Shown here piece after piece: positions 3,849 to 18,555 of a stretch of 25,892 nucleotides of DNA; within the stretch, counting starts at the first letter, position 1, and every line of letters starts with the position of its first letter. Both the position numbers and the translations under genes were made by a program. The notes under the pieces were generated by a model. It had not been told where the DNA came from. It saw only the letters and a list, made by a program, of their open reading frames with translations, and did not search any database. Source of the DNA: a virus; IMG/VR virus record IMGVR_UViG_3300031758_004756, positions 1 to 25,892 of that record; one strand, written 5' to 3'.

Positions 3849-5090
3849 TTATTCTTGGTAGAAGTTCTTCTTCACGAAGTTGCGGCTAAAGCCCTTGTCA
3901 GTGTCCAAAAGCCATTCGCGTTCGCCGATCAACTCACCCTGCGGGCCGTTTGGTTGACCTTCTAAAGCCGCCGCCGTTGCTTGACCGATCCATGTCGCCG
4001 CCTGGACGGCCACTGCCTTGCCCCACGTGGCCCCAAGAGCCGAGTAGTTGTTGACACTGACAAATTCCCAATTGTCGGGCAGACCTTGAATTCTAGCGGC
4101 TTCTCTGTGCGTGATACGGCGCGGCTGTGTCGGGTGCACGATGTGATCAAGAGCACTGCCTGTCATAACGTGACAGAACGAGTTCGCGTCCCAACGAGCC
4201 GGAAGCGAGAAACCCATGTAGAAGTCGTTTAGACGAATCTTCTCTTCCTTGGTGGCCCATGACTGCGGGAACGTGTTGTTGTTCTTCTCGACAGCCTCTT
4301 TAAGAGCAACGTTCAGCGCGGCCATAGGCTTCCAACCTTCGTTACCGAGAATGTCGAAGATCTCTTGGATTCTCTGCGACTCGAGGTTTGTTCTATTCAT
4401 GTGGCCGTCGACGTAGCCGTCTTCATTTCTTAGATCAGCAACAAACTTCGACGGTTCAGCGTTGTACTTCTGTCTGTTCCACGTGATTTCAAGGTTCTCG
4501 AGATCTCCGATGACGTCGATCATCTTTGGCATTTCCTTCGGCATTTCAGCGTGCGCGCCGAAAGGCATACCGCTTTCGACAGCCACCCAGAAGTAGCGCA
4601 TGCGGTACGAGAATCCACCGACCATTAGATTGTTGTGCTTAACGTGATACAGGTCGTATTTCTTACCGGAGAGCTCTTCGAGCATGTCGCGGTATTGATT
4701 CATCACGGCTCGGCCTTGCGTATACGCCTGCTGCACGCACTCAAACACGACCATCTTTGGTTTGATCCGGGCAGCGTACTTCATGAACGCACGCGTGTGC
4801 TCGTGGGCCTTAGCGTCGGGGCCACGGTTCGCTGGGCCAGACCACAGCGACCAACCAGAGCATGGCGGGCAACCAAGAACAACGTCAGCGCTCGTGTCAG
4901 GCCAATCGTTTGGGTCTTCAGAGAAGAACGACGTCCATTGTTCGCCAAGGTGTTTTCTATTCACCTCGGCAACCGGGTTACCAAAGTTAAGAGTGCCCGT
5001 TCGGACCGTCATATCGAGTCCGGATCTCACGAACCCGAGGCTCATAAAGCCAGCAAGACCGTTGCAGTCAATGAAGGTGGGATTGCTCAT
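3849..5090 (-). CDS. DNA (cytosine-5) methyltransferase
   Basis: The 413-residue protein shows the C5-methyltransferase motifs in order: motif I FIDCNGLAGFMSLGF (6-20), motif IV GCPPCSGWS with catalytic Cys77, motif VI as FECV at 116-119, motif VIII YRMR at 162-165, a target-recognition region at about 180-310, RRITHREAARIQGLPDNW (motif IX, 323-340) and GATWGKAVAVQA (motif X, 352-363). The usual ENV of motif VI reads ECV, which is atypical: the Glu is kept but the Asn is replaced by Cys. No restriction enzyme gene adjoins it. It transfers methyl from SAM to cytosine C5. It lies downstream of an apparent hydroxymethylcytosine cassette, which makes its substrate unclear. An AGGA site precedes the ATG. 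Confidence 0.9.
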   Translation of the reverse strand: MSNPTFIDCNGLAGFMSLGFVRSGLDMTVRTGTLNFGNPVAEVNRKHLGEQWTSFFSEDPNDWPDTSADVVLGCPPCSGWSLWSGPANRGPDAKAHEHTRAFMKYAARIKPKMVVFECVQQAYTQGRAVMNQYRDMLEELSGKKYDLYHVKHNNLMVGGFSYRMRYFWVAVESGMPFGAHAEMPKEMPKMIDVIGDLENLEITWNRQKYNAEPSKFVADLRNEDGYVDGHMNRTNLESQRIQEIFDILGNEGWKPMAALNVALKEAVEKNNNTFPQSWATKEEKIRLNDFYMGFSLPARWDANSFCHVMTGSALDHIVHPTQPRRITHREAARIQGLPDNWEFVSVNNYSALGATWGKAVAVQAATWIGQATAAALEGQPNGPQGELIGEREWLLDTDKGFSRNFVKKNFYQE

Positions 5091-6205: not shown

Positions 6206-6442
6206 CTATATCGCCGCTATCTTCTTCTCTAGTTTGTACGCTGGGTGTCTAGCAGAGTGTATGTGCGGCGTCTTATAGTCTATCGTGGTCACGTAGATAT
6301 CGCCGTCCTTGATATCTACAACCTTAACAAGTCGGCCGTTATGAAGTCTGCCAGCATCGGTTTTGTATGCGTCTTTTTTCACTCTTAAGACGTCGTCAAC
6401 GTTCACGTCGAGAGCCGACGCATCTTCCCATAGATCATTCAT
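6206..6442 (-). CDS. Small protein of unknown function
   Basis: From the ATG at 6442 the product is 78 residues (MNDLWEDASALDVNVDDVLRV), followed by a strand-rich part with GRLVKVVDIKDGDIYVTTI that may be a small beta-barrel. I chose 6442 because it overlaps the dCTPase stop as ATGA and has a GGTGG site; a GTG at 6487 would add 15 residues. No family is recognised. Confidence 0.65.
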   Translation of the reverse strand: MNDLWEDASALDVNVDDVLRVKKDAYKTDAGRLHNGRLVKVVDIKDGDIYVTTIDYKTPHIHSARHPAYKLEKKIAAI

Positions 6443-6924
6443 GAACCACCGCCAGTGCTCCGTTGAGGGCAAGACGACTCGAGACACGCGTCCACGTCGT
6501 AGTCGTCAAGAGCTCTGAAGCACGCGGTGCACTTGACACCACTGTCAAGAACTCGATAGCCGTTCTTTTGTCTATCAGCATTCTTCTGCATCTTAGCAAG
6601 ATACTCGCGATCAAGCTCATCGTCCGTGGCCCCTGCGGCGCACAGGATGTTCGCTACAAAGTGCAGAACATCAACGCATTCCTTGAGGATCTCGTGACGG
6701 TCGGCATACGGGTCGTCGTGCTGCCACGGCTTCCATGAGATAGCCTTACGCACCTCGGCAAGCTCGTCGTCGATGGCAAGCATATTCCATCGGATGTACT
6801 CGATGAGGGTTCTTAGGTCGTCATGCTCGTCGCTATGGAACGACGCGTAGTCGACGTTGTACACATCCGTCTGTAGTTGACGTGTCTTTTCCAGCCATTT
6901 ACCAAATAGCACGTTGTCTGCCAT
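6439..6924 (-). CDS. T4 gp56-like dCTPase/dUTPase (all-alpha NTP pyrophosphatase) with zinc-knuckle tail
   Basis: The 161-residue protein has the MazG/dUTPase-2 signature: DDELAEV (52-58) with metal-binding E54 and E57, a short W-rich helix (SWKPW), then EILKECVDVLHFVANIL (78-94) with E78, E82 and D85, and finally YLAKMQKNADRQKNGY (108-123). This last segment and the DVLHFV motif closely resemble T4 gp56 (DIFHFVLN, YYLKN, RQDNGY), which hydrolyses dCTP and dUTP to keep normal cytosine out of phage DNA. Residues 132-152 add four cysteines (C132, C135, C147, C152), a zinc-knuckle extension not in T4 gp56. It follows the two glycosyltransferases with a 26-base coding overlap, fitting a role in cytosine replacement. 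A general nucleotide-cleansing MazG role is the alternative. Confidence 0.8.
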   Translation of the reverse strand: MADNVLFGKWLEKTRQLQTDVYNVDYASFHSDEHDDLRTLIEYIRWNMLAIDDELAEVRKAISWKPWQHDDPYADRHEILKECVDVLHFVANILCAAGATDDELDREYLAKMQKNADRQKNGYRVLDSGVKCTACFRALDDYDVDACLESSCPQRSTGGGS

Positions 6925-7933
6925 GACCTAATCCATTCTTCAGTGTCTGTAGTGCGTCTTGCCTGCTGGCAAGAGCGGCGATGTATCTTTTGCGTTGGTC
7001 TACGGAAAGTTCGTAGATGTCAACGTAATCCATTTCCTCTACGTTTGCCGGCAGTAACGACCACGAATCTCCAAGAATGGACGTAATTTTCCAGTCACTT
7101 ACCACCGGCGTGTCGTTGTTTAGAGCTTGCGACATTCTGTAGCTCCACCACAGCGTCCCGTCGTCTTGCGGACTGACGATCGCGCCTGATGAGCGTACTA
7201 TTAGTTTTTCTACGTCTGAGTCTGTCGACAGTCTGTTGCTTTTCATCTCAACGACCTCGTGGCCAAGGGTATTTTTAAGTGACCTAAACCATTTTGCCTT
7301 TGAGTTGTCGACGGTCCAATACCCACCACGCGCCTTAGGCACCGTGTTCAACTCGGTGTTAAGAAGAAATGAGTCGATCTGAACACCTTGGACTACGTCA
7401 CGCGTCGCGCCGAATAATTGGCTTTCAACGTTTTCATTAGAGGTGAACGGCGTCGACGGGTACAGCGTTGTGTAGACCCAACCTGTCGCCAGCGCCTGTG
7501 CGCCTGCGATCACCGATGCCATGATCTTACGGTTGCCTGCAACGTCGGCATATTGTTTTCTAGCCGCGTAGAAAGGCTTGACGATGTCTTCGGGCTTTCT
7601 ATCTATAGCACGAAGGCTTGCCGCGATCTTCGCCGGTTCCGGCGCGTCAACAAATAGTGCAAGACTGCCGTCGTCCTTCAACAGGTTGATCATGTGAAGA
7701 ACGCCGTACGCCTTGTTTGCAGTAAGACTTAGCATCGGAGCGACGCCAAGTAGAACGTGGTCGTACTGATCTAGGTCACTTTTCTTCAGTAGAACGCTCG
7801 GTTCTATGAAGTGAACAGCGACACCGCTGTCCTTTAGTTCGGACGCGACAACGCCTATGAAGCTTGCCTTGCTATGGAATGATCGGTACGACGACTGCGA
7901 CGCGGTCATACCTGAGATAGCGATTGACTTCAT
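6899..7933 (-). CDS. GT-B-like glycosyltransferase, probably for DNA bases (copy 2)
   Basis: The 344-residue protein (MKSIAISGMTASQSSYRSFH) resembles its upstream neighbour in layout: an N-terminal Rossmann half with LDQYDHVLLGVAPMLSL, then LALFVDAPEPAKI, and a C-terminal half with GTLWWSYRMSQALNNDTPVV and WSLLPANVEEM. The pattern of a short N-terminal strand, a Y-D-x-v-l-v segment, a D-x-P/W-x-F/I site and a late E-rich donor-binding region recalls T4 beta-glucosyltransferase. I infer a DNA-base glycosyltransferase because it lies with a dCTPase and a dCMP-hydroxymethylase-like gene. I chose ATG 7933, which overlaps the preceding stop (TGATG), over GTG 7936. The sugar and linkage are not readable. 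Confidence 0.65.
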   Translation of the reverse strand: MKSIAISGMTASQSSYRSFHSKASFIGVVASELKDSGVAVHFIEPSVLLKKSDLDQYDHVLLGVAPMLSLTANKAYGVLHMINLLKDDGSLALFVDAPEPAKIAASLRAIDRKPEDIVKPFYAARKQYADVAGNRKIMASVIAGAQALATGWVYTTLYPSTPFTSNENVESQLFGATRDVVQGVQIDSFLLNTELNTVPKARGGYWTVDNSKAKWFRSLKNTLGHEVVEMKSNRLSTDSDVEKLIVRSSGAIVSPQDDGTLWWSYRMSQALNNDTPVVSDWKITSILGDSWSLLPANVEEMDYVDIYELSVDQRKRYIAALASRQDALQTLKNGLGHGRQRAIW

Positions 7934-9141
7934 CACCTGCTACCGTCTGGGTTTATCCTCAGTCCCTTGTCTTCATTCAACGCACGGTGCACGATCCTAT
8001 TGCAGTGTTCAACAAACGAATCATACGTGGGCATGTGAGCACGCAAGGCATCGGATTGCGCGTTAGCAGCGCCGGCAAGATCGTCGTCGGACATCGACTC
8101 AACCTGCTTGATCGTCAACGAGTACGGTGCGCCAAGCGGCTTGCCTTCACCCTTGTCGGTGACAAGAATTGACTTTACACGAGCGGCGTACATGAACCGG
8201 CTTCTCCACCAACCGCAGCCAGCGTGCGGGTACGGCGGAGAAAGAATGCCCCAATGTTCGTTGTAGAACGAAAGCACGTCTTCCTCTGTGTCAAAACGCT
8301 GTCCGCCAAACTTTCTGATGAGTTTGCGGCTACCGACGATCTCTACAGGCCATTCAGGGTTTTTCTTTTCGAGCCACGTGTCGTGCGGGACGAGGGCCCC
8401 AAGAACCCACGCCTTCTTCTTTTCAGACGGCGGCATCGGAATAGCTGACGACAGAATATTGAAGATCGTTGAGCTCGGGTCTAGCGCTTCGATCCCTGCC
8501 ATTTCAGCAGGCATTCTCTTTCGCACTAGTGACCTGTCGCCGAATGAATACATCGGGCACACTGGTACAAGCCCGTGTGACCAGCGCTCACCGAGAAGAG
8601 CCTGGGCGGTTTGTACCAATTGGCCTTCGTGCGCCTTGATGTTATCGTCATTGTCGTTGAAGAAGTATCTACCGACAGCACACTTCTTTGCGGCGTCGGG
8701 ATTAGCAGCAACGATTCTTTCTAGTGCAGCGTCGGCTTCTGCCTTTGAGAAGTAAGTGGCGTCTTCAGAACCTCGCAGCGCCGAACCAGACAAGAGATAC
8801 TTGTACAGAATCTCTGGGTGACGGACTAGCGAGCGGCACGCGTTGAACACGGCTGAAAACTGCCAGTCGTCAAAGAAACCAACAGCCGGGATACCAGAGC
8901 TAAGAGCGTACAGCGCGCCCATAGCGCCCTGTCGGCCGTTAAGAGAGTTTAGTGGGCCGAGGTTTACCCAGATCACGTCATATGACGATAGATCTTCACC
9001 TGGCGTGACGCGTCGCCAATCAACCTGATGGCCAACGCTTTCGAGAGCTTCGACGATCGACGCTGGCACGTCGATCTTTTTGATTGTTCTATGCTCTGTG
9101 TTGATCTGAAGAGCAGTGAACCCTGTCATTAAAATCTTCAT
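7933..9141 (-). CDS. GT-B-like glycosyltransferase, probably for DNA bases (copy 1)
   Basis: The 402-residue protein opens MKILMTGFTALQINTEHRTI, then SYDVIWVNLGPLNSLNG, AVGFFDDWQFS, KKAWVLGALVPHDTW, and a C-terminal donor-side region AGCGWWRSRFMYAARVKSIL. The arrangement parallels T4 beta-glucosyltransferase (MKIAIINMG, DYDRLIVVNSS, FTDIRLPFS). It is a paralogue of the next gene, sharing the WW-x-S/R-x-R-M pattern and a late V-E-S/E-M segment. It starts with ATG preceded by AAAGGAT and follows the SSB gene after a gap holding a strong hairpin. The role as a glycosyltransferase for hydroxymethylcytosine is inferred from context and fold-level likeness; a virion or cell-wall acceptor is possible. 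Confidence 0.68.
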   Translation of the reverse strand: MKILMTGFTALQINTEHRTIKKIDVPASIVEALESVGHQVDWRRVTPGEDLSSYDVIWVNLGPLNSLNGRQGAMGALYALSSGIPAVGFFDDWQFSAVFNACRSLVRHPEILYKYLLSGSALRGSEDATYFSKAEADAALERIVAANPDAAKKCAVGRYFFNDNDDNIKAHEGQLVQTAQALLGERWSHGLVPVCPMYSFGDRSLVRKRMPAEMAGIEALDPSSTIFNILSSAIPMPPSEKKKAWVLGALVPHDTWLEKKNPEWPVEIVGSRKLIRKFGGQRFDTEEDVLSFYNEHWGILSPPYPHAGCGWWRSRFMYAARVKSILVTDKGEGKPLGAPYSLTIKQVESMSDDDLAGAANAQSDALRAHMPTYDSFVEHCNRIVHRALNEDKGLRINPDGSR

Positions 9142-9166
9142 TGATTCATCCTTTGTGTGATGCTCA

Positions 9167-9206
9167 AGTGGCCGCCCACGACACCTTCGTATCGCGGGCG
9201 ACCACT
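9167..9206 (-). terminator. 15-bp hairpin between the SSB and glycosyltransferase genes
   Basis: Positions 9167-9181 pair with 9192-9206 around a 10-base loop. Two of the 15 pairs are G-U wobbles in the leftward transcript but C-A mismatches in the rightward one, so the structure is specific to the direction in which these genes are read. No U-run follows, so it could be a terminator of the U-less kind reported in actinobacteria, an attenuator, or an mRNA-stabilising or processing site. The start codon of the next gene is 26 bases further on. Confidence 0.6.
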
Positions 9207-9222
9207 AGAGAACAGCGGCTCG

Positions 9223-9810
9223 TCAGAACGGAGCGGCCGGCGGTGTCTGTGTCTGAACCTCGGCGGCGACGGGAGCCGGGGCGGCTTCCGGAGCAGGAGC
9301 CGGAGCGGGCGCTGCAACTGGTGCAGGCGCCGGGGCAGGTGCCGGAGCGGGCGCGGGGGCCGGTGCCGGAGCTGCAGCCATCGGCGGAACAGGAGCGGAC
9401 GCTGTCGGGATCGAGTAGTACGTCTTGATCTCGTTCTTCTTCTGTCCCTGCCAGGTGCGGCTACCAACCTGCGCGCGGAAGCTACGACCCTTGAGGGTCT
9501 GCTCGATCTGTGCGTTGGTCGGATTGGTCGCGAAGTAGTCCTTGCCGAGACCGAGCGCGTTCATCTTACGGAAGAAGATTCCGAGCGCGTTCGGGTTGTC
9601 GGTCGAGACCACCAGGTTGTCCCACACGAGACGCTTTGCGTGCGCCCCTGTCGTGACCTGCGCCTTGACGGCGAACATCGTCTTGCCGGTCTGAGTGGCC
9701 TTAGCCTGTGCCTCGACGATCACGAGGTCGTAGTCGCCGTCGGGCAGCGGGTCGTACCCACCGACGTCACCTGCCTCCTTGACGAGGTCACCCCAATTAA
9801 GTGTGCTCAT
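9223..9810 (-). CDS. DUF669-type single-stranded DNA-binding protein with Ala-Pro tail
   Basis: The 195-residue protein has an N-terminal domain of about 135 residues (YDPLPDGDYDLVIVEAQAKA, RLVWDNLVVSTDNPNALGIF, KGRSFRAQVGSRTWQG) matching the DUF669 family of phage ssDNA-binding proteins, usually encoded beside Sak4-type recombinases, as here. The last 60 residues are almost wholly Ala and Pro with a run of about nine AP dipeptides, ending PPAAPF. A terminal Pro-Phe recalls the PF tip with which bacterial SSB binds partners, but the acidic residues before it are missing. It probably coats single strands during replication and recombination. Confidence 0.78.
   Translation of the reverse strand: MSTLNWGDLVKEAGDVGGYDPLPDGDYDLVIVEAQAKATQTGKTMFAVKAQVTTGAHAKRLVWDNLVVSTDNPNALGIFFRKMNALGLGKDYFATNPTNAQIEQTLKGRSFRAQVGSRTWQGQKKNEIKTYYSIPTASAPVPPMAAAPAPAPAPAPAPAPAPAPVAAPAPAPAPEAAPAPVAAEVQTQTPPAAPF
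9226..9396 (-). repeat. GC-rich Ala-Pro codon repeat in the SSB gene
   Basis: Low-complexity tract of GCx and CCx codons encoding the Ala-Pro tail. It raises GC sharply compared with its surroundings and creates long false ORFs on the opposite strand. Such tracts change length by slippage. Confidence 0.8.
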
Positions 9811-9838
9811 TGTGTTTACCTATGTCTTTCTGTGTTGG

Positions 9839-10600
9839 TTACTTTGCTTGCTGATCCGGACGAGGTCCGAAAACGATATCGAGCATTCGTTCGACGCTGA
9901 GGTCGCCTTGCTCGACGATCTTACCGAGGCGGCCTTGAACGCGCTCGCCGGCCTCGTACTGGTTGGTGCGCTCGACGTACATACGGCGAGCTTTGTAGGG
10001 TCCTTGTGTCGGGTCCGGATTGTTGAACTCTTCGACGTTGATAGCGCCGAGGATGTCGTAGAAATACGGAGCCTGAATTGCAAGTTGACCCTGAAGGTAC
10101 GGACGGTAACGCCCGTCCTGACCTTGACGCGCCATAGCTGTCAGCACGACGGCTTCCAGCGGATTGGTGGCGTGCATTGTCAGGTCGCGAAGATCGCGAA
10201 GCAACGCGCCCATGTGGCGAAGAAGTTCGCCCCACTGTTGCATCTGCATCTGATTTGTTCCCGCGATGTTGTCCATGCACTTGACCTGCAACTCAGAAAC
10301 CGAGTCGATGATCAATGATTTGAACTGATGGCGTCCGATCTGAAGCCACTGGTACGCCTTGAGAACCGTATCGTACTCGGTGACGTTGACAACGCAGGTG
10401 TCCCACGTTCCGTCAGCCGCAGGCGGCTCCTCGCGCAACGGGTCCCAGTACTTGACGTTGATAGGTAGGAACCTGTGCCCACCTTCAACGTCAAGCATTA
10501 GACGCGGGTATGGTGCGGTGACTGCAAACGTCGACTTTCCGACCTTTGATTCACCATACACCATGAGGGTAAGCGATCGCTGTACTCCACTCATGGTCAT
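9839..10600 (-). CDS. Sak4-like RecA-fold ATPase (AAA_24)
   Basis: The 253-residue protein has Walker A GESKVGKST (16-24), an acidic-box strand LMLDVEGGHRF, Walker B SLIIDSVSEL, and a Q/R-rich segment after MHATNPLEAVVL that matches the L2 region of the phage Sak4 recombinases. Sak4 proteins are single-strand annealing or ATP-dependent recombinases and usually sit beside an SSB, as here. Its ATG overlaps the nuclease stop (ATGA) with an AAAGGA ribosome site. The protein probably acts with the SSB and nuclease in strand exchange or annealing during replication. Confidence 0.85.
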   Translation of the reverse strand: MTMSGVQRSLTLMVYGESKVGKSTFAVTAPYPRLMLDVEGGHRFLPINVKYWDPLREEPPAADGTWDTCVVNVTEYDTVLKAYQWLQIGRHQFKSLIIDSVSELQVKCMDNIAGTNQMQMQQWGELLRHMGALLRDLRDLTMHATNPLEAVVLTAMARQGQDGRYRPYLQGQLAIQAPYFYDILGAINVEEFNNPDPTQGPYKARRMYVERTNQYEAGERVQGRLGKIVEQGDLSVERMLDIVFGPRPDQQAK

Positions 10601-11556
10601 TCACTTCCTTTCATCTCTGTTGATTCGTAATACTTATACGGATCGCCTTGCGTATACAGCTCAGCGATCGCGTGCTCTGCAGCGCTACCGTCGTCAAACA
10701 ACGGGCACACTGCAAAGAACTGGCACTTCCATTTGCAATCACGGCTTGGCCGAGGGTATGCAACAAAGTGATGATCTTGTCCTTCGTCCAATGCGTCTCG
10801 CACCGCGAGCATGTCGCCTACGGTACCATGAATTCTGTTCCAAAACGCTCTCAACGCAAAGGTGTTGTGTCGAACCTCGATCTGATCGTAGAACGGCGGC
10901 TTTGCGTTGGCGGTGCGCTTGACCTTTTTCAGCATCGTAAAGATGCCACCTTCACTGCGCTCGCCTTCCTTGTTCTGCGCCGCCTCAAGAAGCATGTATG
11001 TCAAGATCTGCTCGTTCATGTGCGCTAGTGCAGCGAACTCGGTGAATGATCCGCCAACAGTCTTGAAGTCGCGGAACATGCGAACACCATCTGCCTTACG
11101 GCGAACACGCATGTCAAGTTTACCTTGAAGTTCTACCCTGCCTTCAAACATAGGCATGGTGATGATTTCTTCTGTCGAGATCATCTCAAGATCAGCGTCG
11201 ATACCGTTTTCGTTGACCCAGTCAAGGTAACCCTCGAGCATGATTCTGCCGAGTTCGGCTTCTGTCTCGAGTTCCATGGTGTCACGGAAGCTTTCCATGA
11301 GCGCCTTCTTGTCGAGCTGTACGAAGTGAGCGTACGCCTCGAGCAATGGAGTACCAGTCGAGTAGTACATGTCAAGCGCAGAGTGAACTCGCGAACCGAG
11401 CGCAAGAGCGCCGGTGAAGTTTTGCGTCTGCGGCTGAAGTCTGCGGTAGTAGTTTAGCCACCACTTTCTTCTGCAGTCTTTGAATGTCTGAATCTCTGAG
11501 TTGGAGATTCTCAGTGGCTCGCGGCGGAGCTCAACCGGAGTTTCGTTGATTGTCAC
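10597..11556 (-). CDS. Cas4/RecB-like PD-(D/E)XK nuclease
   Basis: The 319-residue protein shows the Cas4/RecB order: SNSEIQTFKDCRRKWWLNYY with Cys28, GSRVHSAL with His58, GKLDMR with Asp148, FRDFKT with Asp163 and Lys165 (the D-x-K core), QILTYMLLE (the Q-x-x-x-Y motif at 183-187), then CKWKCQFFAVC with Cys274, 278 and 284. Together with Cys28 the three C-terminal cysteines would bind a [4Fe-4S] cluster. It is likely a 5' or 3' DNA exonuclease that prepares ends for the adjacent Sak4 and SSB. The start is GTG with AGGATC upstream, overlapping the helicase stop (GTGA). Confidence 0.88.
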   Translation of the reverse strand: MTINETPVELRREPLRISNSEIQTFKDCRRKWWLNYYRRLQPQTQNFTGALALGSRVHSALDMYYSTGTPLLEAYAHFVQLDKKALMESFRDTMELETEAELGRIMLEGYLDWVNENGIDADLEMISTEEIITMPMFEGRVELQGKLDMRVRRKADGVRMFRDFKTVGGSFTEFAALAHMNEQILTYMLLEAAQNKEGERSEGGIFTMLKKVKRTANAKPPFYDQIEVRHNTFALRAFWNRIHGTVGDMLAVRDALDEGQDHHFVAYPRPSRDCKWKCQFFAVCPLFDDGSAAEHAIAELYTQGDPYKYYESTEMKGSE

Positions 11557-13355
11557 AGTGATCCTGTCTTGTCGTCTCTCAACATCTTGAGAAGTTGGTC
11601 TTTGTCTCGTACGATTTGCTCGAAGTTGTCGGCCTTGGTATCTAGAACCTGAATAACGCGCTCCTCGATCGTCCCGTCAGTGACGTAGTCGGTGATCACG
11701 ATGGAGTCGTGGATCTCGCTACCGATTCTGTGCACGCGGTCAAGAGCCTGTTTGTAATCGACAAGTGACCACGGACGCTGAAGCATGATGAGTCTGCGAG
11801 CCGCTGTCAATGTAACGCCGACACCTCCGGCTTGCGCCGTGAAAAGAATCCACTTGATTCTTCCATTCTGAAAATCATCGATAGCCTTTTGGCGCTCTTC
11901 TTCTGTTTGTGCACCAGTGATTAGTCCGTGCGGGATCTTTGCTTTCTCAAGGCGGGCGCTGAGAAGTTCGATGAGCTGACGTGATACGGCGCAGACGGCA
12001 ACCGAGTCATCTCCAAAGTCGCCAGCGTCGATGTCGTCCATCAACGCGTCAACCTTGCACGATGGCTCTGACAGTTTGACGGCGATCTCGCCCGTAAACT
12101 CGTCTACGTCAACCATAGCGTATGAACTGGCAAACTGTAGCAGACGCGTCGCCTGCGTAAGAGGGCTTGGAGCAGTTAGCGCCTCGCCACCTTCCAACTG
12201 CGCGATCATGACGTCACGCATTTGCTCGTACGCCTTTTTCTGCTTTGTAGACATTTCTACGTCGCGACGTTCCTTGATCACTGGCGGCAACCACGGTAGC
12301 ACCTTTGCCTTAAGCATTCTGCGCATCCGTGGGTTGATAGCCGCGTAGAACTCATCGTGCATATGCGGCTTGACGCCTAGCACCATCATTCCACCAAACG
12401 CGTTCAACATAGTGTCAACCATGCGATCGATCCAGCGCGTCTTGCTAGGCCATTCATTTGGCGACAGCCAATGCAGAATCGGCCATAGGTCTAGAACGTT
12501 GTTAGCGATCGGTGTTCCTGTCAGCGCAAAGCGAATGTCAGCTTTTCCTGTGGCCGCCCACAGCGCGCGTGTCTGCTTGCTCTTCGGTTCCTTTGAACGG
12601 TGAATCTCATCGGCGACAACGGCCTTGAAGTCGATCTTGTTTAGTTCACGCACGTGAACCTCACAGCGATTTTCCGAGACCTTTTCATCGTGGCCGCCGC
12701 ATTCAACACAGCGCGCCAACGCAACGGACCCGTAACTAGCAAGACGTGAGTGCGTGCGCAACGACTCCCAGTTGATGACGTATACATCAACGTTTTCTTC
12801 GGCAAATTGTTTACGTCGCTGTGTCGCTGATCCGCTGATGACCTGGACGTTTACACCAGGCCACCACATTCCAAACTCGCGTCTCCAGTTCTTCTTGAGC
12901 GTGTTAGGGCACACGATGAGCGCTGGGAATACGTCTTCGCCTCTGTCTTTTAGTTCCTTCAACGCGCGAATTGTTTGCGCTGTCTTACCAAGGCCTGGCT
13001 CGTCGGCAAGCAATGCGCGACGGGCAGCGGCAAGAAACTTTACTCCAGCGCGCTGGTGAGGGAACAACGCCTCGTCGCCGTCTGCTGTCTCAAGTTCGCG
13101 CAGTTCGTTGCAGGGCGTCACTCGTGTGTTGAGTTCGGTTGTAGCCCACTCGGCAAGTCTTGGTCCGATGCGCAGCTCAGTCTTGAAGACCGATCGCAGT
13201 GCAAGGCATGTTGACCAGCCGAGCGGCGCCCGCCACGCCTTGTCGGCTGCAGACCAGGTCGCACCCGGGATCCCCTTGCATAATTCTTTGTATCGCCATT
13301 CGGTCTCGATACGGATGTGTTCACCCGAATCATTAAGCTCTACATCAACTGGCAC
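11553..13355 (-). CDS. SNF2-type DNA helicase/translocase with inserted zinc motif
   Basis: The 600-residue protein has motif I ADEPGLGKT (117-125), Ia ALIVCPNTLKKNW, II DEIH (249-252), III LTGTPIANN (278-286), V GGVGVTLTAA and VI DRVHRIGS. An N-terminal part with RYKELCKGIPGATWSAADKAW resembles the HARP-like region of SMARCAL1-type annealing helicases. Between Ia and II lies CVECG (216-220) and CEVHV (231-235), a likely zinc knuckle not typical of the family. It probably moves along double-stranded DNA during fork restart or recombination. The GTG start is preceded by AGAGGTG. Confidence 0.9.
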   Translation of the reverse strand: MPVDVELNDSGEHIRIETEWRYKELCKGIPGATWSAADKAWRAPLGWSTCLALRSVFKTELRIGPRLAEWATTELNTRVTPCNELRELETADGDEALFPHQRAGVKFLAAARRALLADEPGLGKTAQTIRALKELKDRGEDVFPALIVCPNTLKKNWRREFGMWWPGVNVQVISGSATQRRKQFAEENVDVYVINWESLRTHSRLASYGSVALARCVECGGHDEKVSENRCEVHVRELNKIDFKAVVADEIHRSKEPKSKQTRALWAATGKADIRFALTGTPIANNVLDLWPILHWLSPNEWPSKTRWIDRMVDTMLNAFGGMMVLGVKPHMHDEFYAAINPRMRRMLKAKVLPWLPPVIKERRDVEMSTKQKKAYEQMRDVMIAQLEGGEALTAPSPLTQATRLLQFASSYAMVDVDEFTGEIAVKLSEPSCKVDALMDDIDAGDFGDDSVAVCAVSRQLIELLSARLEKAKIPHGLITGAQTEEERQKAIDDFQNGRIKWILFTAQAGGVGVTLTAARRLIMLQRPWSLVDYKQALDRVHRIGSEIHDSIVITDYVTDGTIEERVIQVLDTKADNFEQIVRDKDQLLKMLRDDKTGSL

Positions 13356-13392
13356 TCAACACCTCTTGTCGTTCGTTATCTGTCACTGTATC

Positions 13393-13441
13393 ACATACTA
13401 AGCGGAAATGTCTTCACGCATGCAATTTTTTCTTAGTATGT
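13393..13441 (-). promoter_or_regulatory. 10-bp inverted repeat in the upstream region of the helicase operon
   Basis: ACATACTAAG at 13393-13402 and its exact complement CTTAGTATGT at 13432-13441 flank 29 bases. Reading leftwards the inner arm contains TAGTAT, a possible -10 box, and TTGCAT (13420-13425) lies 19 bases before it as a weak -35. The arms bracket this promoter candidate like an operator. The 29-base loop and lack of a following U-run argue against a simple terminator. Confidence 0.4.
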
Positions 13442-13906
13442 TCACTCAAGGAGCCGCAATGGCGCCCAACCGATCTTCACTAGACGCAGAAGACCGTGGC
13501 GTATCGCGTCCAGCGCGTGACCTTCTCCACCACGATGCCAAAGGTCGAGTTTCTTCAGTGCGCTGTTGTCAAACATCTTCTTAGCGTCAGACGGTGACTG
13601 AAACAGCAAAGTACCAGGGTCAATGTCGTTGCTGAGCATCAGATACTTTAAGATGCCGATCTGCTCGAGGCTAAACGGCGCCTGAGAATTTTTTACCGTC
13701 TGAGCGTTAATTGTGAACCTCTCACAGACGATATCTAACTGTGCGCCAGCCAGTTTGGCTGTGCTAATGGCCCCAAGAATCGGAGTATGGTATTCTTCCA
13801 TAAGAAACTCGCCGGAGGCCAAGAGGCGCGGTTCTAGGCCGCTCTCATAGGAAATCAAAGCGACGCCGCTCTTCTTTCCAGGGTCAACAGCCAAAATAAA
13901 CCTCAT
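13442..13906 (-). CDS. RuvC-like Holliday junction resolvase
   Basis: From the ATG at 13906 the product is 154 residues beginning MRFILAVDPGKKSGVALISY, the first strand of the RNase H fold with catalytic Asp8. DIVCERFTI supplies the second acidic residue and GGEGHALDAIRHGLL the C-terminal histidine/aspartate. I prefer this start over 13954 because it overlaps the deaminase stop (ATGA) and begins exactly at the conserved strand. Phage RuvC-like enzymes cut branched DNA before packaging. The gene closes the polymerase group, with a probable regulatory gap before the helicase. Confidence 0.82.
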   Translation of the reverse strand: MRFILAVDPGKKSGVALISYESGLEPRLLASGEFLMEEYHTPILGAISTAKLAGAQLDIVCERFTINAQTVKNSQAPFSLEQIGILKYLMLSNDIDPGTLLFQSPSDAKKMFDNSALKKLDLWHRGGEGHALDAIRHGLLRLVKIGWAPLRLLE

Positions 13907-14223
13907 GTCCACACCACCCTTGCCACCTTCGACCTTAACAGTATACTTTCGCACTTCTTACACGGCTTCGACGGAGCCGGAGACCCATCTGCGGCTATTC
14001 TGGCAATATAGACGTTCGACCCGACCGCAAGAGAACCTGCGGCGGTGATAGCAGCAAATTCGGCATGAACATGAGATGTTCGCCACGCCGTCGCTGGGTC
14101 ACCGATCTTCTTATTCGTCGACGTCGAAACGATCCGCCCGTCACGAACAACCACACAACCGTGCTTATGTCTGCACTTGCTCTTCGAGGCGACCCCTAGA
14201 GCCATTTCAAGGTATCGGTTCAT
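13903..14223 (-). CDS. Cytidine-deaminase-fold protein (short)
   Basis: The 106-residue protein has HAEFAAI (HAE zinc and catalytic site) and PCKKCESILL (PCxxC zinc ligands), the signature of the cytidine/deoxycytidylate deaminase fold. It is shorter than the dCMP deaminase at 16039 and lacks its insert. The substrate is unclear: nucleosides, dCMP or a modified base are all possible. Its start overlaps the polymerase stop (TGATG) and its stop overlaps the RuvC start, so all three are coupled. Confidence 0.78.
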   Translation of the reverse strand: MNRYLEMALGVASKSKCRHKHGCVVVRDGRIVSTSTNKKIGDPATAWRTSHVHAEFAAITAAGSLAVGSNVYIARIAADGSPAPSKPCKKCESILLRSKVARVVWT

Positions 14224-16046
14224 CAGTACTTGTCACCCCATGTCTCAAGCGGGCCATCAACGTCAGCGGTAAGCGGCACTGCCCAACCGTCGGTTGTTGT
14301 CATACACTGTCTAACAAGTTGCTTGATCTCCTCAGCATCTTCTCGAGGGGCCTGCAGCACGATCTCGTCGTGCACCGGGACGATCAACATTTCTGTCAGA
14401 TCTGCTTGGTCGAGCTTTACAAGATTCGACTTAAAAACCTCTGCAGCTCCACCTTGAATGAGATAGTTGACAAGCGTGTAGACTCTTCCTTCGTCGCACG
14501 GCAATCTGCGACCAGTCCACGTGTAGACGTAGCCTTGGCCTTCCGACTTGAGTCTTCGCATCCCGATGTCTTCTATCTGTCTCTGGAAGTATGACATTCC
14601 CGGGAATCTGTTGTCGAACGCGTCAGATGTTTGCTTCATTTGAATCTCAGCAACGCCGGCTGTCAACGCTTGCTTAGCAACGCCAGCGCCGTACAGGCGA
14701 CCGTAGATCATGCTCTTGATCAGACCACGACGCTTGTCTGATTTCTGCATCCCCGGATCGTTGTAGACCTCACGACCAATCTCGGTGAACGGGTCGGACC
14801 CTGTCGCATCGGCAAGATGAAACAGATTGATGAGGTTGGTGTCATTCGACAGACTCGCAAACATACGGAACTCGACCTGGTCAAGGTCGCTCGTGATAAT
14901 CACATGATCATCGTCCTTAGGGATGAAGGCGCGGCGCACAACATCGTCGCCCTTAGGCAACGTTTGTAGCGCCGGGTTTGTGATCGACATACGAGAAGTA
15001 CGAGCACCGAGAGTTTTCACCGATGGGTGAACGATGCCGTCAATAGACTCTGTAAGAAAATTAGAGAAGTACGTGCCAGCAAGTTTGTCAGCTTTGCGCT
15101 GTTTAAGAACGGTGTCAGCAAGAGTAGACACTTCAGCATTTCCGTCACGAGCAAGGATCTTCAACTGGTCCTTAGTGCATGACTTCTGACCTGTAGGCGT
15201 GAACTCGGTGATCTCTGCGCCAAGTGACTCAAACAGGCGGACCAACTGAACGTTGCTCGTAATAGACACTCCGCCATACGTGTCCTTCGCCCACTTCTTG
15301 ACAGATTCAGTGTACGCTGTAAGTTCATCGTACTTTCTCTGTGAGTAGTCAAGATCAACTCGTGCACCGTTGATTTCCATGCGCGTCACGATCTTGCGTG
15401 TCGCCATCTCAAGCTCGTACGCGCGCTGATACGGACCGTCAGGCCCGCACTGCTTATAGAACATCTCCCACAGACGAGTTGTCAAAACGCAGTCAAGAGC
15501 GCCGTACGACCAGTATGGCGTAAAGTTAGTGGGAACCGTCCCCCACGTCCACCCGTTCTTAACTAGTTCAGTGTCGAGTGTCTCTTGTAGAGCAACTGCG
15601 CGACTGTCGATGTGAAGAGCGGCAAGACGCTTTAGAGCGCCAGACCCAAGCGGGTCAACAACGTGTGCCATAATCATCGTGTCGTGTGCACGATGCCACG
15701 GAATATCCCATCGGGACTGAACATCAAACCAGCGCGCCTCGAACGCGATGTTATGGCAGATCAACGGACCGTCAAACTTGTCCATTGCCTCGTAGAAAAC
15801 GCCCGACCACTCGTCCCACGGGATCGACCAGCCCTGCTCACCATCACCAACCTGCACGAGACGAAGACGGCCGTGCCACGGCGACAGTGCGTGATCTCTT
15901 GGGTTTCCGGGCAGCTCACCGGTTTCAGTGTCTACCGAGATAGCGTTGTACGGTCTTCTCTGCCCAAGCCAGTGCAGAAAATCCTGTGCCTTCTGCACGT
16001 TGTCAACAAGGTGCAGTTGCACATTTGAAAGGTCGTTGTCACTCAA
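14223..16046 (-). CDS. Family A DNA polymerase with 3'-5' exonuclease
   Basis: The 607-residue protein has exonuclease motifs ISVDTET (D39, E41), HNIAFE (98-103, with Glu where Asp is usual) and YGALD (181-185), then polymerase motif A TSDLDQVEFR (D387), motif B RRGLIKSMIYGRLYGAG (440-455) and motif C VPVHDEI (H559, D560). No 5' nuclease domain is present. The motif B position equal to E. coli Phe762 is Tyr448, as in T7 polymerase, a form that discriminates little against dideoxynucleotides. The start is TTG with an AAGGA site 8 bases upstream, overlapping the deaminase gene by 8 bases. It is the likely replicative enzyme and would have to accept any modified dCTP. Confidence 0.95.
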   Translation of the reverse strand: MSDNDLSNVQLHLVDNVQKAQDFLHWLGQRRPYNAISVDTETGELPGNPRDHALSPWHGRLRLVQVGDGEQGWSIPWDEWSGVFYEAMDKFDGPLICHNIAFEARWFDVQSRWDIPWHRAHDTMIMAHVVDPLGSGALKRLAALHIDSRAVALQETLDTELVKNGWTWGTVPTNFTPYWSYGALDCVLTTRLWEMFYKQCGPDGPYQRAYELEMATRKIVTRMEINGARVDLDYSQRKYDELTAYTESVKKWAKDTYGGVSITSNVQLVRLFESLGAEITEFTPTGQKSCTKDQLKILARDGNAEVSTLADTVLKQRKADKLAGTYFSNFLTESIDGIVHPSVKTLGARTSRMSITNPALQTLPKGDDVVRRAFIPKDDDHVIITSDLDQVEFRMFASLSNDTNLINLFHLADATGSDPFTEIGREVYNDPGMQKSDKRRGLIKSMIYGRLYGAGVAKQALTAGVAEIQMKQTSDAFDNRFPGMSYFQRQIEDIGMRRLKSEGQGYVYTWTGRRLPCDEGRVYTLVNYLIQGGAAEVFKSNLVKLDQADLTEMLIVPVHDEIVLQAPREDAEEIKQLVRQCMTTTDGWAVPLTADVDGPLETWGDKY

Positions 16047-16521
16047 CGTCGTCGTCCTTAACTACTGTTAGTTCGATCTTACACTTCTTTAGATACTCAA
16101 ACACGTCGTACGGTCTACGATGTAGATCGGCAGAACGCAGTCTGCATACGACGCGCGCAAGACCAGAGTTTGTTATCAACTTAGCGCACTGCATGCACGG
16201 AGCGCTCGTCACGTAGAGTGTCCCACCGGCGACACTCGAGCGGTCTACATATAGCAACGCGTTTGCCTCAGCGTGAATCGCTGGGCAAGCATCATACATA
16301 TTGTCTAGCGGGGCTTCACCTCTTGCTCGAGGGCACCACAGACTGCACGTACCTTGTTCAGGCCAATCAGCCGCAGGGCCGTTGTAACCTGTTGCGCAGA
16401 TTCTTTGCTCGCTAGAAACAATCACGGCGCCTAACTGCGCGCGCGAGCATCGAGATCTAAGCCCAATAGTTTCGGCTACTGCAAGCCATGTCTCATCCCA
16501 AGAAGGTCTTGTATCGTCCAT
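16039..16521 (-). CDS. Deoxycytidylate (dCMP) deaminase
   Basis: The 160-residue protein carries SRAQLGAVIV, ATGYNGPAADWP, CPAIHAEANALLYVDRSS (HAE zinc site) and TSAPCMQCAKLITNSGLARV (PCxxC), the standard dCMP deaminase series; T4 cd has the same parts. It turns dCMP to dUMP, feeding thymidylate and lowering dCMP. The ATG at 16521 overlaps the preceding stop (TGATG); a TTG three bases earlier is possible. It sits between the small protein and the polymerase. Confidence 0.9.
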   Translation of the reverse strand: MDDTRPSWDETWLAVAETIGLRSRCSRAQLGAVIVSSEQRICATGYNGPAADWPEQGTCSLWCPRARGEAPLDNMYDACPAIHAEANALLYVDRSSVAGGTLYVTSAPCMQCAKLITNSGLARVVCRLRSADLHRRPYDVFEYLKKCKIELTVVKDDDVE

Positions 16522-16709
16522 CAATCTTCGTCATCTTCGTCGTCTTCTATCGAGGCTTCTGCAATGCCTGTGATTAGCATCTTGGCGATAAGCTCAAGAC
16601 CGTCCCGTCTGGAGAATCCGGCTTCACGCAAGGTGAGGTACATTTCGTGCATACTCACCGCGGCTTCCTTCATCGGTGAAGAGTATTCGTCATCCCAATC
16701 GCCACTCAT
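16521..16709 (-). CDS. Small acidic-tailed protein of unknown function
   Basis: A 62-residue protein with SMHEMYLTLREAGFSRRDGL and ELIAKMLITG, a helical pattern that I recall as common in small proteins of actinophages, followed by an acidic tail (EDDEDDED). No function is known. The ATG at 16709 overlaps the ThyA-family stop (TGATG) and has an AGAGG site; a GTG one codon earlier is possible. Confidence 0.7.
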   Translation of the reverse strand: MSGDWDDEYSSPMKEAAVSMHEMYLTLREAGFSRRDGLELIAKMLITGIAEASIEDDEDDED

Positions 16710-17569
16710 CACGCCTCTTTTCTTTTGTTCTTTTCGATCGCTGTGATCATGGCACTAGCATACCACCGCTCCTGCGAAGAAAGAGAGTCCAACAAACTGT
16801 GATCTTTTACAGAGTTCAGGATCGCTATTGCCGAGTCTTTGACTTCATCCCACGTATCACCGTAGATAGGCGGCACTGCTTCAACCTTGTCGGTTTTCTT
16901 AAGGTTGTTCGCGGCCGCGTAGTTTGACTCGTAAATGTGCAAAGACCCAACATGATGAGCGTATGCGCCAGGCTCAACGCCAAGCACGCTACACATCGCG
17001 AGTTGAACCCTCGTAAACTGGAAGAAGTCATACGCTGCTCCTAGCCACACGTCGTTCGATCGCATGTACACGCTCATGTTTAGTTTGTTGTCTCTGATTC
17101 TAAACTGATGGAGGACAGTGCACGGGTAGTCTCTCTTACCTTCTTGGTTGTCGTACTCTGGGTTCCAGATGGTGACAACAGCCTGCCGTGTGTCGCGATC
17201 GTTCTTCAGTTTCTCGATCGCGTAGTCGTACTGGCCATTGGTTCTGCGACCGTACGCGCCGTGGAATATCCCATTGTCCTCGGCATAGTTCTTAAACTGC
17301 GGGCCGACGGCAATGACTGTCTCTGGCGTGCTTACACCGCCAAGAAGTTGGCAAGCCTCAACGGCACCGATGCCGGGGACAGTGCCACGGCCGACGCCGA
17401 TCGGCAGAGCGGCGAAGATATCATCGATGTAGATAACTGCGTCTTCTATTTCAAGCGTATTGAATCCTCGCGGCGCGGCAGGCTTCCCGTGGCGCAGCAC
17501 GTGATTGACAAGATCAACGTAGCCGTTGACGCCATCTTCGATATGAATAAGCTTTACGGAAGTATCCAA
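16709..17569 (-). CDS. ThyA-family dCMP hydroxymethylase (T4 gp42-like)
   Basis: The 286-residue protein belongs to the thymidylate synthase fold: folate-side Glu71, YPCT with catalytic Cys150, YMRSNDVW (168-175) and VGSLHIY (207-213). At the position that in thymidylate synthases is Asn (PFN, E. coli N177) it has Asp181 (LGAAYD), the change that in T4 gp42 (Asp179) switches recognition from dUMP to dCMP. CT after the catalytic Cys and RSNDV also match T4 gp42 rather than the PCH/QRSxD of synthases. The reaction would use methylene-THF to make 5-hydroxymethyl-dCMP; a methylating or hydroxylating variant cannot be excluded. The start is TTG with GAAAGG upstream, overlapping the kinase by 16 bases. 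Confidence 0.85.
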   Translation of the reverse strand: MDTSVKLIHIEDGVNGYVDLVNHVLRHGKPAAPRGFNTLEIEDAVIYIDDIFAALPIGVGRGTVPGIGAVEACQLLGGVSTPETVIAVGPQFKNYAEDNGIFHGAYGRRTNGQYDYAIEKLKNDRDTRQAVVTIWNPEYDNQEGKRDYPCTVLHQFRIRDNKLNMSVYMRSNDVWLGAAYDFFQFTRVQLAMCSVLGVEPGAYAHHVGSLHIYESNYAAANNLKKTDKVEAVPPIYGDTWDEVKDSAIAILNSVKDHSLLDSLSSQERWYASAMITAIEKNKRKEA

Positions 17570-18555
17570 TGTGTGTACCTTTCATCTCTGTTATAGGCGA
17601 AGCTCATGATCGCCTGGCCGTACTCAAAACGATCATCGTGATGGAATCTTCTGACGTATTGCGGGTGTGGAAGAACTACGTATCGCTCTTCTTCTAGGCC
17701 GCACTGGCGAACTTTCTTTTCAGCTAATCTGCCAAGAACAACTATCCTCGGCCCACCGAGCACATCAAGCAGATCATGCAACGAGTTTTCGTCAAAGTCA
17801 TCTGAGTTGATGATTCCGCATGAGCGCCAGCCAAGCTCCGGCAAAGAAGACAGCAGATAGTCTCCAGAGTTGCCGTTGACAGGCATGAATGGGAGAATAG
17901 TCTCGGTAGGGTCTTTTCTCTTGTCGCCGATTAGAAGAACGTTCGGGTGTCTAGGGCCGATGTACATCGGAAACTTAGAAAGCGGTTTCGCTGCCATAGA
18001 CTTCTTCGTGGCAGCGTCGATTATCACGTCGGCGGCGTATTTAACATATTTTTCGCCTTGAGGTACGGTAACCTTCAGCTCTACGTTGTACGCTTTGTTG
18101 TAGCCAAACTCATATCTATCAAGAATACCGGCAAGCTCGTGCGCATCTACAAAATCGTCGCCGCGGCTATTGATCCGTTCAGTGATGACCTCGAGAGGCT
18201 GATACACCCAGCACTGCGTCACTCCACGAGACTCGAGAAACAGCTCCACCCAACGCCAGCCGGCAACGCCAAGAAGACCGTACTCGTCCTTGCACGTCTC
18301 GGGTCGCTTCGTGGGTGCGTACGTTACCTCGCCCCAGTGCCATCTGTCAGACACGGCAATCTCGTCTGTCCAGTCAATGTTCTCGATATCAACGGCATAC
18401 TCGTGCAGCACCCAGCGACGCGTAAGTTCTTCAGGCTTGCCTTTGTGAAACTCCCGCACCTCAGTACGTGGGTTTGCTAACCGTAGCTGTTGCTTAATCT
18501 CGGCAGCAAGAGTACTTTTACCAGAAGCGTCTGCGCCTTCCAAAACTATAAACAT
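17554..18555 (-). CDS. P-loop deoxynucleotide kinase fused to a UDG-like domain
   Basis: Residues 1-185 form a thymidylate-kinase-type domain: Walker A GADASGKST (7-15), SDRWHWGE (69-76) for the DR(Y/W) motif and a LID-like region before DVIID. Residues about 195-320 form a second domain, NVLLIGD, PFMPVNGNSGDYLLSSL, GIINSD, PRIVVLGRLA and LPHPQYVRRF, whose order matches family 4/5 uracil-DNA glycosylases, although GEaPG reads GDKRK. The kinase would phosphorylate dTMP or hydroxymethyl-dCMP; T4 gp1 does the latter. The UDG-like half may bind a base or nucleotide without cutting; that is inference. An AAAGGA site precedes the ATG; a possible promoter lies at about 18581. Confidence 0.8.
   Translation of the reverse strand: MFIVLEGADASGKSTLAAEIKQQLRLANPRTEVREFHKGKPEELTRRWVLHEYAVDIENIDWTDEIAVSDRWHWGEVTYAPTKRPETCKDEYGLLGVAGWRWVELFLESRGVTQCWVYQPLEVITERINSRGDDFVDAHELAGILDRYEFGYNKAYNVELKVTVPQGEKYVKYAADVIIDAATKKSMAAKPLSKFPMYIGPRHPNVLLIGDKRKDPTETILPFMPVNGNSGDYLLSSLPELGWRSCGIINSDDFDENSLHDLLDVLGGPRIVVLGRLAEKKVRQCGLEEERYVVLPHPQYVRRFHHDDRFEYGQAIMSFAYNRDERYTHWILP

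Follow-up and report, generated by a model that had tools for sequence, protein, structure and literature searches.

Does the phage from which this DNA derives replace the cytosine of its genome by 5-hydroxymethylcytosine (hmC) and place a sugar on the new base? The question is raised by a gene cluster in IMG/VR virus record IMGVR_UViG_3300031758_004756, the whole of which (25,892 bases) was analysed here and is called the window; it is probably a fragment of a bigger phage. The centre of the window is a single series of minus-strand genes running from a nucleotide kinase through to WhiB. We consider it highly probable that these genes serve to exchange cytosine for hmC and to glycosylate it. 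A conserved pathway of this kind in an actinophage lineage, like that of T4 but with glycosyltransferases of another family, appears well supported by sequence comparisons and structure models. The genes on which it would depend are the following.

16709..17569, minus strand: thymidylate synthase (TS)-superfamily protein of the dCMP-hydroxymethylase type, 286 amino acids (aa), TTG start (PF00303, Thymidylat_synt, 1.4e-22)
17554..18555, minus strand: deoxynucleoside monophosphate (dNMP) kinase, residues 1-192 with a TMK/YorR fold, plus a C-terminal domain that is possibly uracil-DNA-glycosylase-like (structure model, PHROG)
16039..16524, minus strand: dCMP deaminase (PF00383, 9.5e-19; PHROG dCMP deaminase, 2.5e-41)
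6439..6924, minus strand: gp56-like all-alpha pyrophosphatase of the dCTPase/dUTPase type, with a C-terminal pair of cysteines (PF08761, dUTPase_2, 8e-12)
7933..9141, minus strand: GT1, a GT-B glycosyltransferase, predicted DNA-hmC glycosyltransferase (AlphaFold2 model, fold search, conserved family A1/A6)
6899..7936, minus strand: GT2, a paralogue of GT1 that evolves fast and is predicted to be a second glycosyltransferase (hhalign to GT1)

In the proposed pathway the gp56-like enzyme would hydrolyse dCTP to dCMP, and the ThyA homologue would convert dCMP to 5-hydroxymethyl-dCMP, which the kinase would lift, probably along with dTMP, towards the triphosphate. The deaminase would send surplus dCMP to dUMP for dTTP, PolA would incorporate hm-dCTP, and GT1, then perhaps GT2, would put a sugar on hmC within the polymer; glycosylation would shield the DNA from nucleases. 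Homologies, specificity residues, folds and the conservation of the cluster were computed, and from them we infer the flux, the substrate of the kinase, DNA as acceptor of the glycosyltransferases, the identity of the sugar and the protection.

Enzymes of the nucleotide pool

The top match of the ThyA homologue in the PDB is MilA, a CMP hydroxymethylase (4.9e-17). In E. coli numbering the window protein has E58, D143, C146, T147, R166, S167, D169, D177, H207 and Y209, among them the catalytic Cys, the Asp at 177 and the Asp three positions before the Cys by which dCMP hydroxymethylases of the TS superfamily are recognised (PMC6400193, PMC5175136). D177 is described as selecting dCMP over dUMP and as marking phages with modified cytosine (PMC8670742, PMC5175136), and T4 Asp145, the equivalent of D143, as activating the water used in hydroxymethylation (PMC6400193). 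Related contigs gave 58 distinct sequences, all of which have E58, D143, C146 and T147, and 57 of which have D177; the alignment, to which reference proteins were added, was obtained by dropping open reading frames (ORFs) of <=230 aa and reducing the 122 longer ones to distinct sequences, which may include the window's own by way of near-identical contigs. The TS tryptophans (E. coli positions 80 and 83) and the TS C-terminal tail are absent from the window protein. Where dTMP-forming TSs have the Asn that recognises dUMP (position 177), it has Asp; position 143 is Leu in the ordinary TSs of the set (E. coli ThyA and, by annotation, Thanatos TH1_103), and SPO1 gp29, annotated as a dUMP hydroxymethylase, combines D143 with N177. 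These comparisons support a dCMP-hydroxymethylase-type enzyme, predicted to act on dCMP rather than dUMP and to hydroxymethylate rather than methylate or hydroxylate it.

The original prediction, read from the letters of the window, had called this protein gp42-like, and D143, T147, D169, D177 and the missing TS tail speak for that call. It had also held that a firm placement among dUMP synthases would count against the pathway; the protein has Asp177 and scores below the cut-off of all eight NCBIfam dTMP-synthase models that it matched (for example, 80 against 174.55 bits). The enzyme is predicted to act like gp42, yet it falls outside the gp42 clade on our trees. The enzymes of T4, Erwinia phage FBB1, Aeromonas phage 25 and Micrococcus phage Kurnik form one starred clade, those of the window and of Gordonia phages another; a first tree of 24 rows, with five of the seven named family members, placed T4 gp42 beside ThyA with a long-branch warning. 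An approximately unbiased test did not reject one clade of gp42 and the window/Gordonia group (p = 0.324), on a tree that omitted MW202657 (long branch), the gp42 of IME13 (near-identical to that of Aeromonas 25) and family member L062. Therefore, no independent origin from T4 is claimed, the independent assembly considered in the original prediction being neither favoured nor refuted by this test.

Direct alignment of the NTP pyrophosphatase (NTP-PPase) with T4 gp56 places IDDExxE, WKxW, VDxxHFV and RQxNGY in both proteins, so that the all-alpha NTP-PPase motifs of the gp56-type dCTPases/dUTPases are present. This motif-by-motif agreement, together with the PF08761 match, upholds the gp56-like call, and dCTP hydrolysis is predicted. 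The deaminase call is likewise sustained by the two profile matches given above. All the ORFs originally listed were found on the minus strand where they had been placed; the end given for the deaminase gene, 16521, omits the stop codon (16524).

As regards the presumptive dNMP kinase, the model (pLDDT 92) superimposes on YorR (2axp; Z 18.1, rmsd 2.8, 170 residues aligned) and residues 1-192 make up a P-loop kinase of the YorR/TMK type, with a PHROG thymidylate kinase match of 3.5e-14. The thymidylate-kinase/YorR-type fold thus stood, with an extra domain joined to it, and the substrate is read from the operon context. Matches to the N-terminal domain filled the structure search, and a viral fold library returned thymidylate kinases. 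The C-terminal domain (residues ~196-333) gave a weak, below-cut-off match to uracil-DNA glycosylases (PF03167, E 0.0068, residues 256-312); an HPQYVRRF motif is found in the extra domain of most relatives, and the annotated Gordonia kinases are shorter. PADLOC returned weak kinase matches, and general methyltransferase models for the C5-methyltransferase (C5-MTase) homologue discussed below. The pathway had been called complete: its core steps, bar the kinase substrate, are recognisable from sequence or predicted structure, whereas the wording leans on a 26-kb fragment.

Glycosyltransferases and conservation of the cluster

Neither GT1 nor GT2 matches a Pfam family. GT1 matches PHROG 14998, which carries no function label; a sequence search against solved structures returned nothing usable, and only the fold search was informative. 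The AlphaFold2 model of GT1 (pLDDT 84.8) has the two-domain GT-B fold over its full length, and T4 beta-glucosyltransferase (BGT) came first both with Foldseek (1qkj, E 2e-5) and with VIA-align (1nzd, Z 17.5, rmsd 4.2, 303 residues aligned). With a viral fold library, most of the matches listed were general glycosyltransferases or proteins that are unnamed or uncharacterised. GT1 and GT2 are paralogues by hhalign (probability 99.1%, E 1e-18). The call of two glycosyltransferases is thus favoured by the modelled fold of GT1, with BGT first, and by the homology of GT2 to it.

Fourteen aligned members of the GT1 family, of actinophage, T4-like and cyanophage origin, share an invariant D92 (of FDDW), E286 and W311/R313/R315. 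Among T4-like phages, a GT1 homologue is found in Aeromonas 25, avDM4, Stenotrophomonas phage IME13 and Erwinia FBB1, and these have a gp42 that is 57-60% identical to that of T4. In these same four phages BGT was not detected and AGT did not rise above cut-off, avDM4 having a sub-cut-off AGT fragment; T4 alone was positive for both among 15 records searched. It is likely that the GT1 family stands in for T4's own glucosyltransferases in some T4-like phages and that the acceptor of GT1 is DNA. No gp42 was detected in the cyanophage-like C48C1 or in Vibrio phage D484, both with GT1-like matches. In D484 the partial GT1-like similarity (locus L211, 5386-7640) lies near a QueC-like gene, so that GT1-like proteins may serve other ends there.

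The genes of the window's central series are, in order, the kinase, the ThyA homologue, the deaminase, PolA, a small second deaminase, a RuvC-like protein, an SNF2 helicase, a Cas4-like nuclease, Sak4, DUF669/SSB, GT1, GT2, the MazG/dUTPase_2 protein, DUF6378, the C5-cytosine methyltransferase homologue, a DenV homologue and WhiB. The RuvC-like name was taken from the counterpart in phage DSL-LC01, the other family names from profile scans (Pfam, PHROG); these confirmed the WhiB, PD-(D/E)XK (Cas4-like), Sak4 and SNF2 assignments made from the letters. The second deaminase and the C5-MTase and DenV homologues had no part in that first account. DSL-LC01 (OQ999401), an Actinomycetia phage whose genome comes from lake water, is syntenic with the window from the kinase through WhiB, and this synteny and the presence of WhiB agree with the earlier attribution to an actinophage.

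Viral-contig scans covered the best 80 of 116 confirmed relatives for the ThyA homologue, 14 of 14 for GT2 and the best 80 of 175 for GT1; 143 GT1 loci collapsed to 47 representatives (42 viral contigs and five named phage records). The representatives repeatedly have the order DUF669-GT1-GT2-NTP-PPase, and in their main group GT1 shows 62-100% identity and GT2 mostly 33-43%; over 35 family members GT2 identity ranges from 33 to 68%. Since the same gene order is found in many viral contigs and in DSL-LC01, the cluster goes beyond chance. A search of plasmids gave 113 records, every one below 60% identity. In DSL-LC01 and contig L072, GT1 is only about 30-31% identical to that of the window and an ORF of 364-370 aa separates the two glycosyltransferase genes. 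Gordonia phages Sixama and GodonK have much of the gene set in a looser arrangement. Micrococcus phage Kurnik (L221, OR756649; 4656-19770) has, by annotation, the same operon framework with parts swapped: its hydroxymethylase is of the T4 clade, two of its proteins carry a glycosyltransferase annotation, one of them matching GT25 below cut-off, and the place of GT1/GT2 is taken by a protein of 442 aa. Because one framework can hold a T4-clade hydroxymethylase and other glycosyltransferases, parts of the pathway appear to be exchanged.

UDP-galactopyranose mutase and the C5-methyltransferase homologue

The ORF between GT1 and GT2 in DSL-LC01 encodes a UDP-galactopyranose mutase (UGM; PF03275, 5e-30), and the protein at the corresponding place in L072 is 72% identical to it. 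A GT1 homologue also adjoins a UGM gene in FBB1, Aeromonas 25 (PF03275, 5e-54) and IME13, as well as in C48C1 (PF03275, 5.6e-52); the avDM4 record begins at GT1, so that the flanking gene lies outside it. A scan seeded with UGM gave 80 viral loci, of which 17 have GT1 adjacent and 63 have no GT1-family neighbour; the query consisted of eight UGMs all lying beside GT1, and the figure of 17 is therefore biased upwards. Eight of the 17 (L276, L277, L282-L285, L292 and L300) combine GT1 and UGM with a hydroxymethylase having S92, D143, T147 and D177. The order in four of them is hydroxymethylase, deaminase, GT1, UGM, one small ORF preceding GT1 in two; all eight loci seem to fall into two or three lineages rather than being independent cases. 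A strict tie of UGM to the DSL-LC01-type GT1 allele was rejected, as L186, L187 and L193-L196 carry the allele without UGM. Three other UGM-bearing contigs (L287, L288 and L290) encode a TS-family protein with Thr147 and Asp177 that has Arg at 143 and lacks Glu58.

Because UGM lies beside GT1, including in loci with a hydroxymethylase, galactofuranosyl-hmC DNA is predicted in the relatives that carry it. UGM is absent from the window, and from all 11 window-family records of 86-136 kb, which are possibly fragments; the sugar of the window phage would therefore come from a host UDP-sugar, perhaps galactofuranose but not necessarily so. Actinobacterial hosts can make UDP-galactofuranose. Phage UGMs have been read as cell-wall genes in two papers, one on DSL-LC01 (PMC10611076) and one on Agrobacterium phage Atu_ph04, where a dCMP hydroxymethylase is present as well (PMC6630229). 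No paper linking UGM, phage and hydroxymethylcytosine, and no report of galactofuranosyl-hmC DNA, was found among the papers listed by the literature search.

The C5-MTase homologue (3849..5090, minus strand; PF00145, 5e-22) has recognisable main motifs, except that the Asn of motif X is replaced by Lys. This change is present in all 46 aligned members that cover the site, the window's included; identical copies and short ORFs (<=330 aa, or <=280 aa in the second locus set) had been dropped, and two of the 48 rows lacked the site. The counterpart in E. coli Dcm is GNS. In the phage collection the homologue occurs in 15 records of 10 phages, namely DSL-LC01, 13 Gordonia records and Kurnik, and all 15 hold a ThyA homologue of the hydroxymethylase type, the residues having been checked in DSL-LC01, Sixama, Forza, GMA2, GodonK and Kurnik, and the other Gordonia phages assigned by the ThyA match list. 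In vitro, C5-methyltransferases are able to attach other molecules to hmC. The 5-carboxymethylcytosine transferase CmoX, another homologue whose motif X Asn has given way to a basic residue, has Arg350 there and has been compared with M.MpeI N374K, a variant designed to use carboxy-SAM (PMC12783734). A CmoX-like identity was considered for the window protein and rejected: the Lys fits, but it is not Arg, the motif is GCPPC rather than SPPC, and the partner CmoA (TIGR00740), from which carboxy-SAM would come, was found in none of 20 relatives, some of them possibly fragments. Actinobacterial hosts usually lack CmoA.

It seems conceivable, although we hold it only tentatively and as a whole, that these observations belong together. 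Wherever UGM lies beside GT1, virion DNA would contain galactofuranosyl-5-hydroxymethylcytosine, made by GT1 as a DNA-galactofuranosyltransferase and extended by GT2 where present; this would concern DSL-LC01 and its contig kin, T4-like phages of Aeromonas, Stenotrophomonas and Erwinia, and the compact hydroxymethylase/deaminase/GT1/UGM operons. The window phage would take host UDP-galactofuranose or another, unreported sugar, and the Lys-type C5-MTase homologue would perform a dedicated further step, with an acidic SAM analogue or with hmC as substrate. A furanose-bearing base would bear on phage escape from restriction, CRISPR and base-specific defences, and phage UGMs, taken for cell-wall genes in the two papers cited, would possibly be DNA-modification genes when beside GT1.

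Competing explanations and known systems

The family names dUTPase_2, thymidylate synthase and thymidylate kinase, as given by Pfam and PHROG, would suit an ordinary supply of dTMP, with dUMP from the deaminase, the NTP-PPase as a dUTPase, dTMP from the ThyA homologue, dTDP from the kinase, and glycosyltransferases unrelated to the rest. We regard this as very unlikely, given Asp177, Thr147 and Asp143 in place of the TS residues, the loss of the TS C-tail, the scores under the eight NCBIfam cut-offs and the occurrence of a separate ThyX, a true dTMP synthase family, in two of 15 relatives searched. The product might alternatively be 5-methyl-dCMP, as in Xp12, giving DNA with 5-methylcytosine and leaving the glycosyltransferases to act elsewhere, since an Asn177-to-Asp change shifts TS towards dCMP and yields that nucleotide (PMC8670742). 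However, Asp143 and the missing tail and tryptophans favour attack by water over hydride transfer, and 5-methylcytosine has no hydroxyl for a glycosyltransferase; the chances of such a product seem slight indeed. Just as improbable is a 5-hydroxy-dCMP synthase, the name given to RB69 ORF048 of the Mosigvirus type, with the sugar placed directly on the C5 oxygen. There, too, the enzyme is of the TS superfamily, has Asp177 and Thr147 and acts ahead of a glycosylation step (PMC13390438), but Glu143, Asn169 and MRSQN/MRSEN are found in ORF048 and in Thanatos TH1_062, whereas the window protein has Asp143 and Asp169, with MRSND, like T4 gp42. Glu143/Asn169 as a mark of the RB69 type is our own proposal, drawn from two sequences, and TH1_062 would belong to this type by its residues and by the O-linked pentose reported in Thanatos DNA (PMC12838424).

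The hydroxymethylated base might also be made and left bare, GT1 and GT2 acting on the host envelope or on virion parts. The 63 UGM loci without a GT1-family neighbour indicate that phage sugar genes have other uses, and the cell-wall role seen by the DSL-LC01 authors points the same way. On the other hand, GT1 is kept in the hmC cluster, occurs in gp42-bearing T4-like phages where AGT and BGT were not detected, accompanies a hydroxymethylase and UGM in eight loci and has a BGT-like GT-B fold, and we judge bare hmC DNA unlikely.

Several points weigh against replacement of cytosine by glycosylated hmC, the reading that we prefer. The contig is only part of a genome, the substrate of the kinase and the acceptor of the glycosyltransferases are deduced, and the literature search turned up no chemical analysis of the DNA of any close relative. 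Where T4 has the signature residue Ser94, the window protein and all 58 related sequences have Gly; the window thus lacks the Ser/Thr two positions before a conserved Tyr (T4 Ser94-x-Tyr96) that marks the gp42 clade and is Ser in T4, Kurnik and two other aligned gp42s, SPO1 gp29 having Ala there. The sequence of GT1 shows no resemblance to that of T4 BGT (hhalign probability 0.5%), and the non-DNA glycosyltransferases SenB and PimA are near-tied with BGT, within one Z unit, in the fold search, so that the fold argues for GT-B and not for a function. Finally, a C5-MTase kept in the cluster would make no sense on fully hydroxymethylated DNA, which weighs mildly against full replacement: either part of the cytosine is left unmodified, or the homologue has an activity other than cytosine methylation.

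Compared with the T4 pathway (gp42, gp56, cd, gp1, AGT/BGT), the window has dCTP hydrolysis, dCMP hydroxymethylation, deamination, a kinase and two GT-B glycosyltransferases in common by prediction, and retains the gp56 motifs and the equivalents of gp42 Asp145 and Asp179. It departs from T4 in a hydroxymethylase outside the gp42 clade with Gly for Ser94, a GT1 unlike BGT in sequence, a TMK/YorR-type kinase with an extra domain, a PolA replisome context and the C5-MTase homologue. Phage contigs recovered by MetaGPA likewise unite an Asp177 TS homologue with deaminase and pyrophosphohydrolase domains; decoration there is by a 5hmC carbamoyltransferase (PMC8670742), in the place of which the window has glycosyltransferases, no carbamoyltransferase having been identified in family scans of its proteins. 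The RB69 arabinosyl-hydroxycytosine and Thanatos pentose systems also couple a TS-superfamily enzyme with a sugar on cytosine, but the sugar sits on the C5 oxygen without a methylene, and the sugar genes are others (PMC13390438, PMC12838424).

The literature search found no report of cytosine replacement with a sugar in the DSL-LC01 lineage or in Gordonia or Micrococcus phages. Viral glycosyltransferases that place a variety of glycans on DNA were reportedly described by Pyle et al. (Cell Reports, 2024), so that novel hmC glycans, as a class, are not new. The word "hydroxymethyl" does not occur in the main text of the DSL-LC01 paper, as far as available (PMC10611076). The authors of GMA2 remarked that DNA might be protected by the products of its glycosyltransferase and methylase genes (PMC4524720), and a DNA-protecting role was proposed for glycosyltransferases of Nanopelagicales phages (PMC10202952); "thymidylate" is absent from the available text of both. 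If the pathway operates as proposed, sugar-decorated replacement of cytosine would be common in a large uncultured lineage related to DSL-LC01 and also in phages of Gordonia and Micrococcus, which can be cultivated. GT1 would then represent a new family of enzymes that probably glycosylate DNA, substituting for the T4 enzymes in some T4-like phages.

The remaining genes of the window that were examined are these.

13903..14223, minus strand: second small deaminase-family protein, 106 aa (PF00383, 4.3e-12)
3262..3774, minus strand: protein homologous to DenV, the pyrimidine-dimer glycosylase of T4 (PF03013, 2.1e-14), kept in the cluster among relatives
End of the minus-strand series: WhiB (PF02467, 1.6e-15)
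1369-2199, plus strand: GT-A glycosyltransferase-like protein, by motif reading
2-997, plus strand: repeat protein

The second small deaminase gene overlaps the RuvC-like gene, and homologous ORFs are present in only part of the relatives. ORFs homologous to the GT-A-like protein occur in some relatives; its acceptor could be the virion or the envelope rather than DNA. The translation of 2-997, which runs off the contig end, contains recurring LNSDGxxDTAFTTNTGTGA...SDGKILVGG units and is perhaps a tail-fibre-type repeat.

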